Source: Pseudomonadota bacterium (GTDB taxonomy: Bacteria; Pseudomonadota; Gammaproteobacteria; Burkholderiales; Burkholderiaceae_C). Taken from it: 64,000 bases of DNA. Below, in pieces: positions 3,657 to 56,018 of this stretch (position 1 is the stretch's first letter; the number at the start of each line of letters is the position of its first letter). Below the pieces are notes generated by a model that did not search any database, was not told the DNA's origin, and was given only the letters and a program-made list of their open reading frames with translations. The DNA lies in assembly GCA_031119395.1 (NCBI GenBank), contig JAVHYA010000019.1:1-64000 (forward strand), written 5' to 3'. Both the position numbers and the translations under genes were made by a program.

Positions 3657-3715
3657 GGCGGCCGATCATAGGCAGTGCCAGCCAGCCAGGCAGTCCGGCG
3701 CAGGACAGCGGCAAT

Positions 3716-3774
3716 GCTATTGAAAAGATAGCTGGTCGTGCAGGCGGGACGGGCGCTGCGGACCGATTCGGCCT
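3716..3774 (-). repeat. 58-bp palindromic repeat, copy A
   Basis: On the minus strand this reads a GC-rich arm (GCAGCGCCCGTCCCGCCTGC) followed by the 17-bp palindromic tail GCTATCTTTTCAATAGC, which lies at 3716-3732. It matches the copy at 8052-8110 in order and spacing. It sits between the hydrolase start and the ABC operon. Confidence 0.8.
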
Positions 3775-3877
3775 GGATTCGGGGTGAACCCTGTGGAGGA
3801 AATTCCTGCTGCGGCTTCTCGCCGTCGCGGGCTAGAGTCGCCGCCTTCGCACAGAACGACGGACCCAGGAGACGCCC

Positions 3878-8039: not shown

Positions 8040-8051
8040 ACGGAGAACTTC

Positions 8052-8110
8052 AAGGAAAAACCGGCTGTAGCGCCCGTCCTGCCTGCACGAGCAGCTATCA
8101 ATTCGATAGC
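8052..8110 (+). repeat. 58-bp palindromic repeat, copy B
   Basis: 59 bp starting AAGGAAAAA, then TAGCGCCCGTCCTGCCTGCA, and ending in the perfect inverted pair of GCTATCAATTCGATAGC (8094-8110). It lies between the ABC ATPase stop and the aldo/keto reductase. Confidence 0.85.
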
Positions 8111-8181
8111 GACGGGCCTGCCCGCGGGGCATCGGGCCGCCGCAGGCGCACGTCCGCGTACCCGGCGGTAGCATCCGGGGC

Positions 8182-21390: not shown

Positions 21391-21418
21391 GCGGAAAGAG
21401 CAGGCGCCGGGCCTGATT

Positions 21419-21476
21419 GCTATGGTTTCAATAGCGCCCCGTGCAGGTGGGGCGGGCGCTGCGGCCCGATTTCCTT
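21419..21476 (-). repeat. 58-bp palindromic repeat, copy C
   Basis: On the minus strand AAGGAAATCGGGCCGCAGCG opens the element, CGCCCGCCCCACCTGCACGG follows and GCTATTGAAACCATAGC (21419-21435) closes it. Exactly 58 bp. Intergenic, between ppnP and the Pro/Tyr-rich secreted protein. Confidence 0.85.
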
Positions 21477-21534
21477 CGAAGATCGGGTGCAGCGCCGGGC
21501 ATTCTAGGGGCGGCTGCCCGCCCGTTCGCCCCGC

Positions 21535-35127: not shown

Positions 35128-35636
35128 GCGCCGGCCCCGCGTGCGCCTTCCAGCGCCAGCAGGGCCGTCTTGCGTGCCAGCCCGCCGGCATAGCCGGTGA
35201 GGCTGCCGTCGGCGCCCACCACGCGGTGGCAGGGCACGATCACGCTGATCGGGTTGCGGCCGACGGCCGCGCCCACGGCGCGCACGGCGGCCGGGCGGCC
35301 CACCCGGCGGCCCAGAGCGCCGTAGCTGGTCGTCTCGCCGCGCGGAATGGCCAGCAGGGCCTGCCACACCGACTGCTGGAACGCCGTGCCGTGCGACAGG
35401 TCCAGCGGCAGGTCGAAGCCGTCGCGCCGGCCCTCGAAGTAGGCGAGCAGCTGCTCGGCGGCCTGCCGGAGCACCGGGTGCAGGTCGTTGTCCTGCCAGC
35501 CGCGCGTGTCCGGGCTGTGCTGCTGGCCGTCGAACCACATGCCGGCCAGTCCGGCGTCGGTCGCAGCCAGTCGCACGCTGCCCAGGGGTGTGTCGATCCG
35601 GGTGGTATGGAGGGCGGAGGGGATCTTGAATTTCAT
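35124..35636 (-). CDS. ogt: methylated-DNA-protein cysteine methyltransferase
   Basis: 170 residues. Acceptor Cys136 in IVPCHRVVGADG with the AVGRNP and GYAGG motifs typical of Ogt/AGT. It removes O6-alkyl groups from guanine and is consumed in the reaction. The start at 35636 directly abuts a palindromic repeat, and the leader shows no Shine-Dalgarno site. It follows the Ada-AlkA gene by seven bases, so the alkylation-repair functions of enteric Ada are split over two genes here. Confidence 0.93.
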   Translation of the reverse strand: MKFKIPSALHTTRIDTPLGSVRLAATDAGLAGMWFDGQQHSPDTRGWQDNDLHPVLRQAAEQLLAYFEGRRDGFDLPLDLSHGTAFQQSVWQALLAIPRGETTSYGALGRRVGRPAAVRAVGAAVGRNPISVIVPCHRVVGADGSLTGYAGGLARKTALLALEGARGAGA

Positions 35637-35694
35637 GGTCGAATCAGGCTGCAGCGCCCGCCAGCCGGGCGCAGGCAGCTATTGAATTGATAGC
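35637..35694 (+). repeat. 58-bp palindromic repeat, copy D
   Basis: GCAGCGCCCGCCAGCCGGGC, then the palindrome GCTATTGAATTGATAGC (35678-35694). The hairpin GCGCCCG-CCAGC-CGGGCGC is perfect. It fills the whole alkA-ogt junction: read on the minus strand it encodes the last 16 residues and stop of the Ada-AlkA protein and runs up to the ogt ATG. Confidence 0.82.
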
Positions 35695-37239
35695 AGGGGG
35701 TGGCGATGCGGCCGCCGCGGCATGCCAGGCGCGCAGCACGGCATAGCTGCGCCAGGGTCGCCAGGCCTCGGACGCCTGCGCGGCGGCCCGGGCACCCGTC
35801 ACCTCCAGCGCCTTCTGCAGGGCCACGTCGCCGGCGGGGAAGGCATCGGGCCAGCGCAGCGCGCGCATGGCGATGTACTGCGCCGTCCAGTCGCCGATGC
35901 CGGGCAGTGCCTGCAGGGCGGCGCAGGTGCGGGCCACGTCCGCGCCCGGGTGCAGGGCCAGCCGGCCTTCGAGCGTTTCATGCGCCAGGGCCTGCAGGGC
36001 GGCCTGGCGCTGGCGCACGATGCCCAGGCGGCCCAGCGCATCGCCGCTCGCTGCCGCGAGCGCTGCGGGGGTGGGGAACAGCCGGTCCAGGCCCGGGATG
36101 GGCGTGGCCAGGGGCTCGCCGAAGGCCTGCACCAGCCGCGCGCCGAGCGTGCGCGCGGCGGCCACCGTCACCTGCTGGCCGAGCACGGCACGCACCGCCA
36201 GCTCGAAACCGTCCACCGCGCCCGGCACCCGTACGCCGTCACCCAGCGGGAAGGCCGCATGCAGCGCCGCGTCGATGGCGGCCGGGTCGGCGTCCAGGTC
36301 GAACAGCGCCCGCACGCGCGCGATGACCGCCGGCAGGACCGGGGCCAGCGCGTCGTCGACCGACAGTTCGAGTTCGCCGGCCGCGACGTCGAAGCGCGCG
36401 CTCAGCCAACCGGCGCGCGTCTGCGCGCCGTGGCCGACGCGCACCGTGCGGGCCAGGCGGTCGCCCGCGACCTGCTCCACGCCGGGGATCGCGCGGCGCG
36501 CGAAGAAGCCCAGCATGGCTGCCACGTCGTAGGGGGGCCGCCAGCCCAGCCGCACGCGGATGCCCTGGGTCCCGGGCGCAGGACCGGCCCGCCGCAGCGC
36601 GCTCGGATTCAGGCCGTAGTGCGAGACGAAGGCCGCGTTGAAGCGGCGCACGCTGGCGAAGCCGCTGGCCATCGCCACCTCGGTCATCGGCAGCGTCGTG
36701 TCGGCAATCAGCTGCTTGGCGGCCAGCAGTCGCCGTGTCTGCAGGTACTGCAGGGGCGAGACGCCGAACTGCGCCTCGACGATGCGCCGCAGGTGGCGCT
36801 CGCTCACCCCCAGGCGCCGGGCCACCGCGGCCACCGAGCCGCCGGTCGCGCTGCCCGCTGGATCGTCCATGAGCCGTGCGGCCTGCAGGCCGAGCAGGCG
36901 CGATGCGTCGGCCGTGCTCCAGACCGCTGCCTCGTCCGGCCGCGGCGCCAGTTCGGGCCGGCAGCGCAGGCAGGGCCGGAAACCCGCTGCCTCGGCCTGC
37001 GCCGCGTGGCGGTAGAAGCGGCAGTTCTCCCGCCGCGGCGTCTTCACGCGGCACACCGGGCGGCAGTAGATGCCGGTGGAGGTCACGGCGGTGAAGAAGC
37101 GCCCGTCGAAGCGCGCATCGTGCGTCTTCATCGCCAGGTAACAGGCGTCGCTTTCGGTAGCGTCGATGGGGGCGGGCGGGGGCGGCATGGCAGGCATCCT
37201 ACGAGGCGAAACCCGCTCGGACGCGCCATTTTCGGACAT
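35644..37239 (-). CDS. alkA: Ada-AlkA fusion: methylphosphotriester sensor and 3-methyladenine glycosylase II
   Basis: 531 residues. An N-terminal Ada zinc domain has Cys59, 63, 90 and 93 (GIYCRPVC, FRPCLRC); Cys59 is the expected methyl acceptor. An AraC helix-turn-helix follows (about 125-205), then the AlkA N-domain and HhH-GPD glycosylase (LPGIGDWTAQYIAMRAL, catalytic Asp471 in FPAGDVAL). It should sense methylated DNA, activate transcription and excise alkylated bases. The O6-methyltransferase domain is missing and supplied by ogt next door. The last 16 residues (516-531) are encoded by a palindromic repeat. An internal start (MKTHDARFDGRFF) is possible. Confidence 0.92.
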   Translation of the reverse strand: MSENGASERVSPRRMPAMPPPPAPIDATESDACYLAMKTHDARFDGRFFTAVTSTGIYCRPVCRVKTPRRENCRFYRHAAQAEAAGFRPCLRCRPELAPRPDEAAVWSTADASRLLGLQAARLMDDPAGSATGGSVAAVARRLGVSERHLRRIVEAQFGVSPLQYLQTRRLLAAKQLIADTTLPMTEVAMASGFASVRRFNAAFVSHYGLNPSALRRAGPAPGTQGIRVRLGWRPPYDVAAMLGFFARRAIPGVEQVAGDRLARTVRVGHGAQTRAGWLSARFDVAAGELELSVDDALAPVLPAVIARVRALFDLDADPAAIDAALHAAFPLGDGVRVPGAVDGFELAVRAVLGQQVTVAAARTLGARLVQAFGEPLATPIPGLDRLFPTPAALAAASGDALGRLGIVRQRQAALQALAHETLEGRLALHPGADVARTCAALQALPGIGDWTAQYIAMRALRWPDAFPAGDVALQKALEVTGARAAAQASEAWRPWRSYAVLRAWHAAAAASPPPAINSIAACARLAGAAA

Positions 37240-38686: not shown

Positions 38687-40126
38687 GTGCGTCGTTCGCT
38701 CTCGCTTCGCCTCTACGGCCTCGTCACCCGACTCGCGCAGCCGCTGCTGCGCCGCAAGCTGCGCAAGCGCGCCGTCTCCGAGCCCGGCTATGCGGTGGCG
38801 GTGGAAGAGCGCTTCGGGCAGTACGACACCGCCTTCGCCGGTTCCGACTGGTGCTGGGTGCATGCCGTCTCGCTGGGCGAGACGCGCGCCGCCGGCATCC
38901 TGATCGCCGAGCTGCGCCGGCAGTTGCCCGGCGTGCCGATCCTGCTGACGAACGGCACCGCCACCGGCCGCGAGGAGGGCGCCAAGCTGCTCGAGGACGG
39001 CGACGTGCAGGTCTGGCAGCCCTGGGACACGCCCGAGGCCGTCGCGCGCTTCCTCGACCGGTTCCGGCCCCGCATCGGCGTGCTGATGGAAACCGAGGTC
39101 TGGCCCGAGCTCACGGCGGCCTGCGCCGAGCGCGGCATCCCGCTCACGCTGGCCAACGCGCGGCTCAACGAGAAGTCGCTGGCCTCGGCCGAGCGCCTGG
39201 CCTGGCTGTCGCGCCCGGCGTATTCGTCGCTGGCGGCCGTGTGGGCGCAGAGCGAGGCCGACGCGCACCGCCTGGTGTCGCTGGGCGCCAAGGTGGCCGG
39301 CGTGTACGGCAACCTCAAGTTCGATGCGGCGCCCGACCCGCGCCAGCTCGCCCATGCCGATGCGTTGCGGGCGCATCTGCCCAAGCCGGTGATCGTGTTC
39401 GCCAGCTCGCGCGACGGCGAGGAGCGCCAGCTGCTCGAAGTTCTCAGGCATTTCTGGGTCTCCGCGCCCGTGGAGCCTGCGCGGGGTGCTACGAAAGGCA
39501 TAGCAAAACTGCGTGCCTCCGACGTGCAGTGGATGATCGTGCCGCGCCATCCGCAGCGCTTCGACGAGGTGGCCGCGCTCATCGAATCGATGGGGTTCGC
39601 CTGTGCGCGCCGCAGCACCGCCGATGGCACGCCGCGCGACAACGAGATCTGGCTTGGCGACTCGCTGGGCGAGATGGCGCTGTACTACGGCCTGGCCGAC
39701 GTCGCGCTGCTGGGCGGCAGCTTCGAGCCGCTGGGCGGCCAGAACCTGATCGAGGCGGCGGCCTGCGGCTGCCCGGTGATCCTGGGTCCCTCGACCTTCA
39801 ACTTCGCCGAGGCGGCGGAGCTGGCCATCGCCGCGGGCGCTGCCCTGCGCGTCGACGACATGATGCAGGCGGTGGTCCATGCGCTGGCCCTGGTGGCCGA
39901 CAAGCAGCGCAGCGCCGGCATGGCGCAGGCGGCGCAGGTCTTCGCCGGCAGCCACCGCGGCGCCGCGGAGCGCACGGTGGCGGCGCTGCTGGCGCTGGCG
40001 CGCCAGGTGCCCGAGGCGCCGCCGGCGGCGCCTGGGGCCGAGCCGGCCGAACCGGTGCTCGAACCCGCGGCCCCGTCGGCGCCGCAGAACCCGCCGGACG
40101 GCCGGAGCGAGCCCCGGCTCGACTAG
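38687..40126 (+). CDS. waaA: 3-deoxy-D-manno-octulosonic acid (Kdo) transferase
   Basis: 479 residues from GTG 38687. Inner-membrane GT-B enzyme adding Kdo to lipid A precursors. N-terminal anchor, then WVHAVSLGETRAA, LMETEVWPELTAAC, VPRHPQRF and GGSFEPLGGQNLIEAAACGCP. The stretch EERQLLEVLRHF ... VQWMIVPRHP is about 17 residues longer than in E. coli WaaA. The extra piece (about 254-273, including ATKGIAKL) coincides with a palindromic repeat. A Pro/Ala/Glu-rich C-terminal tail (about 445-479) is also unusual. Confidence 0.93.
   Translation: MRRSLSLRLYGLVTRLAQPLLRRKLRKRAVSEPGYAVAVEERFGQYDTAFAGSDWCWVHAVSLGETRAAGILIAELRRQLPGVPILLTNGTATGREEGAKLLEDGDVQVWQPWDTPEAVARFLDRFRPRIGVLMETEVWPELTAACAERGIPLTLANARLNEKSLASAERLAWLSRPAYSSLAAVWAQSEADAHRLVSLGAKVAGVYGNLKFDAAPDPRQLAHADALRAHLPKPVIVFASSRDGEERQLLEVLRHFWVSAPVEPARGATKGIAKLRASDVQWMIVPRHPQRFDEVAALIESMGFACARRSTADGTPRDNEIWLGDSLGEMALYYGLADVALLGGSFEPLGGQNLIEAAACGCPVILGPSTFNFAEAAELAIAAGAALRVDDMMQAVVHALALVADKQRSAGMAQAAQVFAGSHRGAAERTVAALLALARQVPEAPPAAPGAEPAEPVLEPAAPSAPQNPPDGRSEPRLD
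39446..39504 (+). repeat. 58-bp palindromic repeat, copy G, inside waaA
   Basis: Diverged copy: CTCCGCGCCCGTGGAGCCTG carries a CCGCGC/GCGCGG hairpin, and GCTACGAAAGGCATAGC (39488-39504) is the 17-bp closing palindrome with GCTA/TAGC ends. It is read in frame in waaA. Confidence 0.65.
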
Positions 40127-44639: not shown

Positions 44640-45590
44640 ATGGTTTCCTCCCCTCCTGTTCGCGGCCTGCCGTGGGTGTCCGACGCGCTGCTGCTGGCCG
44701 TCGCCGCCGTCTGGGGCACCAGCTACGGCGTGATGAAGACGGCGCTGGCCTTCCATCCCGTGCTGGGCCTGCTGGCCTTGCGCTTCGGCCTGACCTTCGT
44801 GCTGCTGTTGCCGGCGCTGCGCGGACTGCGCGGCGTGCCGGCGGCGCTGCGCTGGCGCATCGCCGGGCTGGGCGGCCTGCTGCTCGCGGTCTTCCTGTGC
44901 GAGAGCTACGGCGTGCTGCACACGCAGGCAGCGCGCGCGGCCTTCCTCATCAGCCTGTGCGTGGTGTTCACGCCGCTGGTGGAGTGGGCGCTGCTGCGCC
45001 GCCGCCCGGCCGGGCGCGAATGGGCCGCCGTCGCGGTCTCGCTGCTCGGGGCCGCGCTGCTGGCGGGCGATGCCGCGGGTGGATTCGGCCTGGGCGATGC
45101 GCTGGTGCTGGGCGCGGCGTTGTTGCGGGCGCTGATGGTCTGCTGCACGCGGCGCGTGCTGGCGCCGGACGCAGGGGCGGCGGTGCCGCCAGCGCTGGCC
45201 GTCACGGCGGTGCAGTCGGGCGTGGTGGCCGTGGGTTGCGCGGTGCTCGCCACGCTGCAGGGGCCGTGGCCCGCGCTGCCGTCGCCGTCGGGCGAGCCGC
45301 TGTTCTGGGCCTGCCTGGCCTGGCTGGTGGGCGCCTGCACGCTCTTCGCCTTCTTCGCCCAGAACGCGGGGCTGCAGCGCAGCACGCCCACCCGCGTGGC
45401 GCTGCTCATGGGCAGCGAGCCGGCCTTCGGCGCGCTCTTCGCGGTGGCCGTGCTGGGCGAGCCGGTCGGGCCCAGGGCGTGGACGGGCGGCGCGCTGATC
45501 GTCGCGGCAGCGCTGCTGGCCACGGTGCGCGGTATGCCTGGCCGCGGCGGCGCGCCGGTGGTGCGGCCTGCCGGATCGTCACGTTCGTGA
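44640..45590 (+). CDS. EamA (DMT) family transporter
   Basis: 316 residues, ten membrane helices in two EamA repeats. It opens VSDALLLAVAAVWGTSYGVMKTALAF and has SLCVVFTPLVEWALLRR, a typical end of the first repeat. The start at ATG 44640 lacks a strong ribosome-binding site; an in-frame GTG/ATG further upstream would add up to 17 residues. Probably controlled by the divergent LysR protein. Confidence 0.87.
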   Translation: MVSSPPVRGLPWVSDALLLAVAAVWGTSYGVMKTALAFHPVLGLLALRFGLTFVLLLPALRGLRGVPAALRWRIAGLGGLLLAVFLCESYGVLHTQAARAAFLISLCVVFTPLVEWALLRRRPAGREWAAVAVSLLGAALLAGDAAGGFGLGDALVLGAALLRALMVCCTRRVLAPDAGAAVPPALAVTAVQSGVVAVGCAVLATLQGPWPALPSPSGEPLFWACLAWLVGACTLFAFFAQNAGLQRSTPTRVALLMGSEPAFGALFAVAVLGEPVGPRAWTGGALIVAAALLATVRGMPGRGGAPVVRPAGSSRS

Positions 45591-45649
45591 CGAATTCGGC
45601 CGCAACGCCCGCTGGGCGTGCGCTGGCGGCCGATTGCGCTTTCGGGTTT

Positions 45650-47050
45650 TCAGCGCGCCGCAGGCACCGGCACCGGGCTTTGGGTGGCGGCGGACGGCTC
45701 GGTGCCCGCCCCTGCCGACGATGCCAGCGTGGCCTCGATCGGCTGCAGGTCCTCGGGCCGCAGCGAGCCGTTGGCCTGGCGCAGCTTCAGGTTGCCCAGC
45801 AGCACGTTGTAGCGCGCCAGCGCCAGGTCGCGCTTGGTCTGGTAGAGCTGGCTCTGCGCGTTGAGCACGTCGATGTTGATGCGCACGCCCACCTGGTAGC
45901 CCAGGCGGTTGGCGTCCAGCGCGCTCTGGCTGCTGGCCTCGGCCGACTCCAGCGCCTTCACCTGGTTGGCACCGGCCAGCAGGCCGAGGTAGGCGGCGCG
46001 CGTGGCCTGCGTCACGTTGCGGCGGGTGGCGTCGAGCTGCGCGCGGGCCTGGTCTTCGAGTGCGACGGTCTCGCGCACGCGGTTCTCCACCGCGAAGCCG
46101 GCGAACAGGGGCAGCGTCATCTGCACGCCGACGTACGACTGCTTCACGCGCGTGCGCAGGGTCGAGTCGATCACGCCGTCGGGGTTGTTCTGCACGCCGT
46201 AGCTCAGGGTGGCATCGACGACGGGCTTGTGGCCGGCCTTGGCCTTGTCGATCTCCAGGCCGGCGACGTCCAGGGCCAGGCGTGCCTGCGCGATGGCGGG
46301 GTGGCCGTCCTCGGCCTGCGCGACCCAGGTCTCGGCGCCGGCCGGCGCGGGCACGGGCAGGCGCGCCGGCGCCGCCAGCGGCCAGGGGGTGGTGCCGCTG
46401 CGGCCCACGAGCTGGTCGAGCGCGATCCTCTTGACCTGCAGGTCGTTCTCGGCCGCGATCTCCTGCGCCAGCACCAGGTCGTAGCGCGCCTGCGCCTCGC
46501 GCGTGTCGGTGATCGTGGCGTTGCCGACGTCGAAGTTGCGCTGCGCGGCGGCGCGCTGCTCGGCGACGGCGGCCTTCTGGGCGCGCACCAGGGCCAGGCT
46601 GTCCTGGCTGCCCAGCACGTCGAAATAGGCCTGGCTCACGCGCACGATCAGGTCCTGCTCGGCCAGCGCGAGCTGGGCCTGCGCGATGTCGTACTGCCGC
46701 TTGCCCTGCTCGTAGGTGGCCCAGTTGGCCGGCCGGTAGATCGGCTGCGTGGCCTGCACGCCCGCCTGCTGGGTGTTGAAGTCGCGCGGGCCGGTGCCCT
46801 GGTCGGTGCGGATGCGGGCCTCGGTGCGCGAGGCCGAAGCCTGCAGCCCGACCTGCGGCAGCAGGCCCGCCTTGGCCTGCGCGGCACGCGCGTAGGTCGC
46901 CTCGTACTGGGCCCGCGCGCCCTGGAAGGTGGCGTCGAAGGCTCGCGCCGATTCGTACAGCGCGACCAGGCTCTGGCCATGGGCCGGCAGGCTGGCCGCG
47001 AGAACGAGGCCGCCAGCGGCCGCGAAAAGGGGAGGCCGCAGCCGGCGCAT
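45650..47050 (-). CDS. tolC: TolC-family outer-membrane channel protein
   Basis: 466 residues with a signal peptide ending near AHGQS. It begins LVALYESARAFDATFQGARAQYEATYARAAQAKAGLLPQVGLQAS, the type I secretion TolC pattern, and the long helical tunnel segments repeat in the second half (EIDKAKAGHKPVVDATLSYG). Outer-membrane exit duct for efflux pumps and type I secretion. It follows the rhodanese gene by 39 bases on the same strand. Confidence 0.92.
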   Translation of the reverse strand: MRRLRPPLFAAAGGLVLAASLPAHGQSLVALYESARAFDATFQGARAQYEATYARAAQAKAGLLPQVGLQASASRTEARIRTDQGTGPRDFNTQQAGVQATQPIYRPANWATYEQGKRQYDIAQAQLALAEQDLIVRVSQAYFDVLGSQDSLALVRAQKAAVAEQRAAAQRNFDVGNATITDTREAQARYDLVLAQEIAAENDLQVKRIALDQLVGRSGTTPWPLAAPARLPVPAPAGAETWVAQAEDGHPAIAQARLALDVAGLEIDKAKAGHKPVVDATLSYGVQNNPDGVIDSTLRTRVKQSYVGVQMTLPLFAGFAVENRVRETVALEDQARAQLDATRRNVTQATRAAYLGLLAGANQVKALESAEASSQSALDANRLGYQVGVRINIDVLNAQSQLYQTKRDLALARYNVLLGNLKLRQANGSLRPEDLQPIEATLASSAGAGTEPSAATQSPVPVPAAR

Positions 47051-53476: not shown

Positions 53477-53481
53477 GTCTC

Positions 53482-53539
53482 GAAGGAAAAGTGCCCGCAG
53501 CGCCCGCCGGACGGGCGCGGGGTGCTCTCGATTTGATAG
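53482..53539 (+). repeat. 58-bp palindromic repeat, copy E
   Basis: AAGGAAAAGTGCCCGCAGCG start, perfect hairpin GCGCCCG-CCGGA-CGGGCGC, and the closing GCTCTCGATTTGATAGC at 53523-53539. Exactly 58 bp, five bases after the AEC transporter stop. Confidence 0.85.
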
Positions 53540-53762
53540 CGAGTCATCCAGCCGGCGAGCGCAGCGAAGCCACCAGGGCACCCGCGGAACTGGCTTGGCC
53601 AGGCCGCTGGGGAGGCCTTGCAGGCCGCGCGAGGCCAGTGGCCTCGCTCTTCGCCAGTCACAAAATGTCCACCGGACATTTCTGTGTACGGGCTCAGCCC
53701 CCCTCCAAGCCGAAGGCGCCGGAGAGGGGGGAACCGCGAAGCGGCTTGAGCAGTGCTTCCTG
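53540..53762. other. non-coding, repeat-rich gap
   Basis: Together with copy E this is the longest gap in the window (about 286 bases between the AEC gene and pdxH). It holds a hairpin AAATGTCC-ACC-GGACATTT at 53663-53681 and a second perfect hairpin CCCCCCTC...GAGGGGGG (53698-53731). I see no gene in it. Confidence 0.6.
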
Positions 53763-55454: not shown

Positions 55455-56018
55455 ATGACGCCCGCCCTTCCCGTCGTGCTGGTGCTGGCCTCCGGCCGGG
55501 GCGAGCGCTTTCGCGCCTCGGGCGGCACGGTGCACAAGCTGCAGGCGCTGCTGGGCGAGCGGCCGGTGCTGGCGCACACGCTGGCGGCCGTGCAGGCCAG
55601 CGGGCTGCCGTGGCATCTGGAGGATGCGGGCCACCCCGGCATGGGCGACTCCATCGCCGCGGCCGTGCGCGCGACGTCCGATGCCGCCGGCTGGCTGGTG
55701 CTGCCGGCCGACCTGCCGCTGGTCGAGCCCGCGACGCTGCGCCAGGTCGCACAGGCGCTGGCCCGTCCGGGCGTGACGGCCGCGCAACCGGTGCATGCGG
55801 GCCAGCGCGGCCACCCGGTGGGCTTCGGCCCCGCCTGCCGCGACGCCTTGCTCGCATTGGAAGGAAATCAGGGCGCAGCGCCCGTCCTGCGGGCGCAACG
55901 TGCTATGAAATCAGTAGCAGACATCGACACGGCAGACGCCGGCACGGTCACCGACATCGACACCCTGGACGATCTGGCGCGCGCCGAGCTGCTGTGGCGC
56001 GCGCGCAGCGGACGCTAG
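55455..56018 (+). CDS. MocA-like molybdenum-cofactor nucleotidyltransferase family protein
   Basis: 187 residues. Nucleotide loop LVLASGRGERFRASGG, the substrate segment GHPGMGDSIAAAVRA, the DLPLVEPATL acid patch, RGHPVGFG and the late DIDTLDDL motif are characteristic of MobA-like NTP transferases (MocA/NboR). It probably adds a nucleotide to molybdopterin. Residues about 136-155 are encoded by a palindromic repeat, yet they fall where the family has a GDxGAR-type stretch (here EGNQGAAPVL). Confidence 0.85.
   Translation: MTPALPVVLVLASGRGERFRASGGTVHKLQALLGERPVLAHTLAAVQASGLPWHLEDAGHPGMGDSIAAAVRATSDAAGWLVLPADLPLVEPATLRQVAQALARPGVTAAQPVHAGQRGHPVGFGPACRDALLALEGNQGAAPVLRAQRAMKSVADIDTADAGTVTDIDTLDDLARAELLWRARSGR
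55861..55918 (+). repeat. 58-bp palindromic repeat, copy F, inside the MocA-like gene
   Basis: AAGGAAATCAGGGCGCAGCG start, perfect hairpin GCGCCCG-TCCTG-CGGGCGC, closing GCTATGAAATCAGTAGC at 55902-55918. 58 bp, translated without a stop. Confidence 0.85.

Follow-up and report, generated by a model that had tools for sequence, protein, structure and literature searches.

The waaA Gene and Its Extra Loop

The window considered here, by which we mean the whole stretch of 64,000 nucleotides that was analysed (genome G000, contig C128), comes from a Xenophilus-like genome of 5.14 Mb whose nearest named waaA relatives are Xenophilus. It carries a gene for the Kdo transferase WaaA, an enzyme of lipopolysaccharide, in which one copy of a dispersed repeat is read in frame as an extra surface loop, together with six further copies of that repeat:

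38687-40126, + strand: waaA (Kdo transferase), 479 aa, GTG start (open reading frame, profile match and fold comparison)
39425-39541, + strand: codons of the 39-residue GEE-PRHP interval, residues 247-285
39446-39505, + strand: in-frame repeat copy, WaaA residues 254-273 (RHFWVSAPVEPARGATKGIA); model matches at 39453-39510 (CM R1) and 39464-39506 (HMM)
39488-39504, + strand: closing imperfect dyad of the waaA copy, GCTA-cgaaaggca-TAGC (= GCTACGAAAGGCATAGC), in frame
40007-40123, + strand: Pro/Ala-rich C-terminal tail of WaaA, about 40 residues past the family domain, after about residue 440
3710-3776, - strand: repeat copy
8050-8116, + strand: repeat copy
21413-21479, - strand: repeat copy
35634-35700, + strand: repeat copy
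53480-53546, + strand: repeat copy
55858-55924, + strand: repeat copy

By sequence family and predicted GT-B fold, the product is assigned to the Kdo transferase WaaA. It scores 455.5 bits (E 1.6e-136) against profile NF004386, short of the curated cut-off of 524, and the best solved fold for its AF2 model is that of Aquifex WaaA (2xci_B; Z 31.2, rmsd 4.6 over 352 residues), with the Acinetobacter C-terminal domain 4bfc matching at Z 24.0 and rmsd 2.2 over 189 residues.

The interval between GEE and PRHP measures 39 residues in the window protein and 22 in E. coli K-12 WaaA, which bears out the estimate of about 17 extra residues in an initial annotation of this DNA; its attribution of those residues to a repeat copy including the closing GCTACGAAAGGCATAGC holds as well, the dyad lying in frame within that copy. 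The annotation had also proposed looking for orthologues without the segment, which exist (38 of 180 unique waaA have intervals of 18-27 aa), and mapping it on the structure. In the AlphaFold model (pLDDT 89, pTM 0.82), a helix at residues 246-256 is followed by coil at 257-276, which is the insert, and by a strand at 281-285; the block 261-270 has a pLDDT of 74. The repeat-encoded segment is thus modelled as a loop ahead of a strand of the C-terminal domain, and it is this position, between a helix and a strand, that would let WaaA accept the element.

A Dispersed Repeat Family

Judged from its copies, the element is about 55 bp long, with the core GGCCTCCAGCGCTTG-n5-CAAGCGCaAGCAGCTAT-n7-ATAGC and variants that are genome-specific. 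At least 150 copies are present in each of G000 and G109, and across 11 sampled genomes with the waaA insert each 100 kb contains between 9 and 34; two short-interval genomes had 0 copies in 100 kb. The best 150 copies of the complete G109 chromosome are evenly spread and divide between the strands as 73 plus and 77 minus. A polar signal of the segregation type was considered and rejected on that chromosome: replichore polarity is absent, and the best two-arc bias was equalled by 16 of 200 shuffles. Such an even, two-stranded spread without polarity fits an uptake-like or a mobile system better than a segregation signal. Of 218 sampled copies, a crude gene caller assigned 116 to intergenic DNA and 60 to the interior of genes, but it over-calls in GC-rich DNA, so that these counts are unreliable, and it puts several window copies inside doubtful ORFs.

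How firmly does the waaA copy belong to this family? When the 64 kb are searched with an HMM of the six other window copies, only the six themselves score above it (39464-39506, 16.3 bits, E 3.8e-4), and the following match has 14.1 bits. A CM of the same six gives it 16.5 bits (E 0.063 in 257 kb), with one other non-training place in the window ranking higher (22.1 bits). With an HMM of 30 other G000 copies it reaches 17.7 bits, above all of 200 synonymous re-codings of itself, while 1819 control tiles of waaA genes reach at most 8.2. Taken by itself, the window copy is a modest match; its homologues in other genera remove the doubt (L086, CM E 3.7e-12; L152, 56.9 bits).

A weak repeat-like match was also seen at 45576-45653, inside a long ORF (R1 22.1 bits on the plus strand, 17.1 on the minus); it may be a chance dyad in GC-rich DNA. 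A search of the window with Rfam (E up to 1) returned three tRNAs and one sub-threshold match, none of them at the repeats.

The waaA Site across the Family

WaaA was matched in all 250 genomes sampled from the family. The genes compared comprise 100 fetched from the closer matches listed, so that distant members are under-sampled, and 95 loci partly from the same genomes, making 195 genes, of which 180 are unique. Among these 180 the GEE-PRHP interval is bimodal, with 38 genes at 18-27 aa, 6 at 28-31 and 136 at 32-54. We scored the intervals with repeat models trained on non-waaA copies oriented one way (30 from G000 and 50 from 400 kb of G170), whose intergenic status was not verified copy by copy. 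A score of at least 10 bits was obtained by 60 of the 136 long intervals and by none of the 6 intermediate intervals, the 38 short intervals or the 1819 control tiles. All 60 recognisable copies lie on one strand, at the same site and in the same frame. When each of the 60 was re-coded 200 times with its gene's own codons, the real score was never reached; the resemblance therefore lies in the DNA, beyond the peptide. The remaining 76 long intervals scored below 10 bits, many of them from Variovorax, other Xenophilus or Pseudacidovorax. An earlier scoring with a Xenophilus model of mixed-orientation copies (18 one way, 12 the other) had recognised 53 of the 136 long intervals, with recognisable copies in 43 rich genomes (defined below) and 0 poor ones.

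In the 51 inserts classed as repeat-bearing by the mixed-orientation scoring, four-fold-site identity for pairs at 50-80% WaaA identity is 0.60-0.70 in the insert and 0.42-0.58 in the flanks, whereas amino-acid identity of the insert is only 0.36-0.48. Repeat-bearing inserts are less constrained as protein and more constrained as DNA. In the control, long intervals without a recognisable repeat, silent identity at deep divergence falls to 0.23-0.31 in the insert vs 0.45-0.50 in the flanks, a drop that comes partly from poor alignment of the insert. On a WaaA tree for which repeat-bearing genes were classed by the same mixed-orientation scoring, and in which 53 of 123 inner branches are open, about 18-20 changes of interval class are needed.

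The waaA copies also tend to follow the repeat dialect of their own genome. When genome-specific models trained without waaA were applied to 12 waaA inserts, the genome's own model came first for 7 and ranked 2, 4, 5, 6 and 6 for the others, so that for 5 of the 12 the repeats of some other genome give the higher score; the double-centred diagonal is nonetheless 12.0 bits, vs 0 +- 2.2 in permutations, and none of 20000 permutations reached it. Single copies illustrate the pattern: the G114 waaA copy has TGCGCAGACAGCTATCAA..AGTAGCAAAC in common with another G114 copy, and AATATGCGC.AGCAGCTCCTG is common to the waaA copy of G194 and another copy in that genome.

A further kind of long interval was observed in Pseudacidovorax (L010-L015, L024, L025, L027, L028, L030 and L076), where the 54-aa WaaA interval holds a different, Gly/Pro/Arg-rich loop with no similarity to the repeat.

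Other Coding Genes with the Element

Seven Pfam-checked proteins host in-frame copies, namely PgeF (Cu-oxidase_4), HemD, Cca (PolyA_pol), an SDR reductase, SelO, a nucleotidyltransferase/hexapeptide protein resembling GlmU, and a solute-binding protein in which the repeat overlaps the signal region. Three of these were followed across genomes that are rich or poor in the element:

(i) In cca the element was found in 19 of the 20 rich genomes and in none of the 10 poor ones, nor in any of 30 reversed cca controls. It lies antisense there, on native TINSIA codons, while in waaA it lies sense. The Cca spacing is 11 residues in several element-bearing and element-free orthologues and 7 in three poor genomes; these spacings come from a regular-expression parse that took in 25 of the 30 loci, the element scan itself covering all 30. 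As several Cca proteins that carry the element are no longer than others free of it, the element can sit on native codons. Some poor genomes carry apparently ameliorated remnants at the Cca site (APLDWDGSASAV beside ADAGWTGAGAV).

(ii) Of the rich genomes, 18 of the 20 carry it in pgeF; none of the 10 poor ones does.

(iii) In the SDR reductase gene it was found in 15 of the 20 rich genomes and in none of the 10 poor ones, counts that include five rich and two poor genomes in which only a paralogue of at most 46% identity was matched. A scan of the whole SDR locus of G237, which is split in two matches, did not find the element.

The dialect permutation gave values reaching the real one in 0 (Cca), 0 (PgeF) and 3 (SDR) of 20000 permutations, a partly circular result, since a few of the training sets include the tested copy. 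Together with waaA, these orthologous coding sites are occupied in most of the sampled genomes that bear the repeat family and in no sampled genome that lacks it.

Repeat copies were also seen in frame over apparent gene starts, where they may supply start codons or signal peptides, as with MKKIPLDLAKYAQAALFFIAITLSGCAS in G110. Such overlaps occur in L286-L290 (G110, C1:500001-600000), L281-L285 (G114), L276-L280 (G109) and L291-L295 (G194). In G109 the overlapped start reads MKIVVIGAGAW, which we take to be gpsA-like, and in G194 the repeat overlaps the signal region of the solute-binding protein matched by Pfam. In G000 a copy at C11:29586-29652 falls inside a ComEC match (C11:29166-29975) and is a candidate in-coding copy.

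Genomes Rich and Poor in the Element

With an element model built from 12 genomes (R2; up to 20 matches scored per genome), matches were found in 112 of 250 family genomes and 61 of 115 genera; 76 genomes are rich, meaning that they have at least 10 matches. Among 115 genomes sampled from the class, the window's own was the only one with a match at E 1e-5, and 19 of the 20 non-matching genomes listed belong to other families.

In the 100 fetched genomes, long WaaA intervals occur in 54 rich and 5 poor genomes, short ones in 5 rich and 30 poor, and intermediate ones in 1 rich and 5 poor (Fisher p 2e-14, not corrected for descent). Recognisable waaA copies occur in 49 rich and 0 poor genomes of the 100 sampled. 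Independent rich/poor pairs number 2 on supported branches and 17 when unsupported branches are counted, so the association is not correctable for descent.

Five rich genomes have a short WaaA (G119, G067, G024, G215 and G117), G170 is rich without the element in Cca, and G083 and G016 are rich without it in PgeF; no single site is therefore indispensable. G006 is rich, yet its own waaA copy (L003) has decayed.

G237 (genus code g70) has a single repeat match, and its WaaA, Cca, PgeF and SDR are all free of the element, while its congeners G170 and G083 are rich; these genomes would make a good pair for finding a trans-acting factor, though they lie apart in the WaaA tree.

Conserved Peptide, Drifting Codons

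Five close Xenophilus genomes were compared. Their WaaA interval is 95-100% identical as protein, and three have repeat-like codons (16.4-18.1 bits) while two do not (L002 and L003, at -0.4 and 0.5 bits). In this window clade, dN/dS is 0.018 in the insert and 0.048 in the flanks, and silent divergence is 0.353 in the insert vs 0.202 in the flanks. Purifying selection acts strongly on the peptide even as its codons drift, so that here it is the peptide that has taken over. The initial annotation had called the copy diverged and linked this to selection on the protein or to old age, which agrees with a conserved peptide on decaying DNA. It had also considered that all close relatives might share an unrelated loop of equal length without nucleotide similarity to the repeat: L002 and L003 do have a loop of equal length that retains almost no nucleotide similarity, but the wider family points to codon amelioration and not to an unrelated loop.

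Further along lies Variovorax, where dN/dS is 0.28 in the insert and 0.13 in the flanks (30 of 51 rows used) and which shows the end state of decay to ordinary codons. The genus g98, with 4-9 repeat matches in its three genomes, has a waaA of the Variovorax form (L126 and L127, for two of them). Where the family or its local upkeep has been lost, the codons ameliorate, and either the peptide may stay, as in Xenophilus L002/L003 and Variovorax, or the site is short.

What May Hold the Element at Its Sites

We consider it probable that the extra loop of WaaA is the translated copy of an old, dispersed, family-specific DNA recognition sequence of about 55 bp, held at its sites at the DNA level by a putative trans-acting recogniser. 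The element would be read as double-stranded DNA, and the recogniser's preference would shift between lineages, with the sites following as dialects. Upkeep might rest on selection acting at the sites, or else on a drive in which intact sites overwrite decayed ones. The leading candidate for the putative recogniser's role is a DNA-uptake-like system of self-recognition. A broader formulation, which we offer tentatively as a possibility short of an even chance, is that Comamonadaceae carry a long (about 55 bp), genome-wide self-recognition sequence in lineage dialects, preserved through the coding of WaaA, Cca, PgeF and the reductase and shaping their loops; it would form a new class comparable to the DNA uptake sequences (DUS) but distinct from them, the WaaA loop being a by-product that was afterwards retained as protein in lineages whose DNA had lost that function.

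The strongest competitor, which we nevertheless regard as unlikely, is a mobile, selfish element of the REP or RPE kind that re-inserts into or converts old sites, its dialects being recent bursts and its coding copies surviving as they are often stop-free. Its many copies, genome-specific subfamilies, presence on both strands and even spread in G109 are what such an element would give, as are the candidate in-frame copies in many genes and the 82-119 of 194 copies that are open in each of the six frames; a Y1/RAYT-like transposase gene (PF01797) is also present in 36 of 40 genomes. That gene, however, is as common in poor as in rich genomes (18 of 20 each) and was not found in the rich genomes G128 and G241. 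Orthologous genes hold the same sites across genera, several Cca proteins are equally long with or without the element, and the apparently ameliorated peptides at the Cca site of some poor genomes are expected of ancestral sites. The same observations bear on the initial annotation's picture of a tolerated mobile insertion resembling the Rickettsia palindromic elements, which we do not retain: the waaA site is common to many genera, its sequence tends to follow the dialect of its own genome, and other genes behave alike. "Tolerates" appears too weak a word for a WaaA in which repeat DNA is apparently maintained. ComEC, taken as a marker of competence, was found in every one of 40 genomes, whether rich or poor. 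Neither ComEC nor the RAYT-like gene separates rich from poor genomes, so no recogniser can be named among these.

We give little credence to a single, neutral, ancient insertion into waaA, inherited and decaying, whose likeness to the repeat is residual homology. That all genera with the insert agree in its site, strand and frame, and that decay is visible in Xenophilus and Variovorax, accords with such an event, but residual homology would not track each genome's own dialect, would not leave the silent sites of different genera more similar in the insert than in the flanks, and would not be recognisable, within the sample, in repeat-rich genomes alone.

Equally improbable, in our estimate, is a function of the folded strand, either as an RNA regulator (hairpin, terminator or small-RNA target) or as a single-stranded DNA structure, which in waaA would act on the mRNA. 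It draws on the dyad-symmetric blocks, on the placement of intergenic copies near gene ends (by crude gene calls; PMC5217627 likewise notes intergenic copies near genes) and on a weak Watson-Crick excess at the inner-dyad pairs 28/38, 29/37 and 30/36, equalled in 20, 47 and 73 of 1000 shuffles made within genomes. No such excess appears at the closing dyad, however (297 and 736 of 1000 shuffles at 51/61 and 52/60; Fisher p 0.29 at 51/61), the top mutual-information pairs of the element alignment are mostly neighbours, the element is antisense in cca and sense in waaA, and Rfam found in the window only the tRNAs and one sub-threshold match. Because the dyads are conserved, the closing one without a pairing excess and the inner one with only a weak one, we favour the recognition of double-stranded DNA.

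Comparison with Known Systems

By analogy, the element is closest to the DUS dialects in behaviour and to the Rickettsia palindromic elements in anatomy, and it is a proven member of neither. The comparison may be set out as follows:

(i) REP/BIME sequences are short, dyad-bearing, present in many copies per genome and associated with the RAYT transposase. The element described here is likewise short, dyad-bearing and present in many copies per genome, but unlike REP with RAYT it is not extragenic only and has four coding sites shared across genera; a RAYT-like gene is equally frequent in rich and poor genomes (18 of 20 each).

(ii) Rickettsia palindromic elements are families whose copies are read in frame inside protein genes, where the fold accepts them. 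In-frame copies inside protein genes (waaA, PgeF, HemD, Cca, SelO and SDR) are shared with the present element, whereas here, in other bacteria, the coding sites are orthologous across genera, the copies track genome dialects, and no net insertion is needed.

(iii) The DUS is 10-12 bp long, whereas the conserved blocks here span about 55 bp. In the available account of Neisseriaceae (PMC3630211), DUS are genome-wide, occur in lineage dialects with intragenic and intergenic copies, form dyad pairs in some species, and are bound by the DUS-binding protein ComP. The present element resembles them in being genome-wide, in dialects and with intragenic copies, and it occurs on both strands.

(iv) BRE is a betaproteobacterial repeat of about 90 bp and 69% GC that forms tandem arrays and, by the threshold applied in its description, numbers no more than 29 copies in a genome (PMC3110155, Hot et al. 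2011); as far as that source is available, it is usually intergenic, with some copies wholly within coding sequences, and occurs also in Polaromonas, Delftia and Acidovorax. As described there, it differs from our element in copy number and tandem arrays.

(v) Two motifs were described as potential novel motifs in PMC5217627: GCTTAT(N)5AAGCG in Acidovorax ebreus and ATAGCT(N)22CAAAAG in Polaromonas naphthalenivorans. Of the 114 copies of the former, 107 are intergenic, 5 lie in genes and 2 overlap them; of the 125 copies of the latter, 101 are intergenic, 18 lie in genes and 6 overlap them. The former matches the core GCGCTTATCCATCAAGCGC of the element; the latter, to judge from its motif, may be another part of it. 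In the available text of that paper, a family-wide element, the waaA loop, orthologous coding sites, dialects and a function do not figure in the description of these motifs (PMC5217627). Searches for this element in open-access papers on Comamonadaceae brought up PMC5217627 and PMC3110155 as the relevant sources, and none that describes dialects of the element or coding sites shared between genera.

What the Sites May Record

In this family, repeat DNA appears to be preserved at set positions within the genes of core proteins in many genera, and the protein loop would be the price. Living relatives, from the window clade to Variovorax, catch the hand-over from DNA-level to protein-level constraint. 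The element offers a concrete way of testing why short dispersed repeats persist by the hundred in bacteria, in that the putative recogniser should be findable through rich and poor sister genomes, and its coding sites may serve as a natural record of when the specificity of that recogniser changed.
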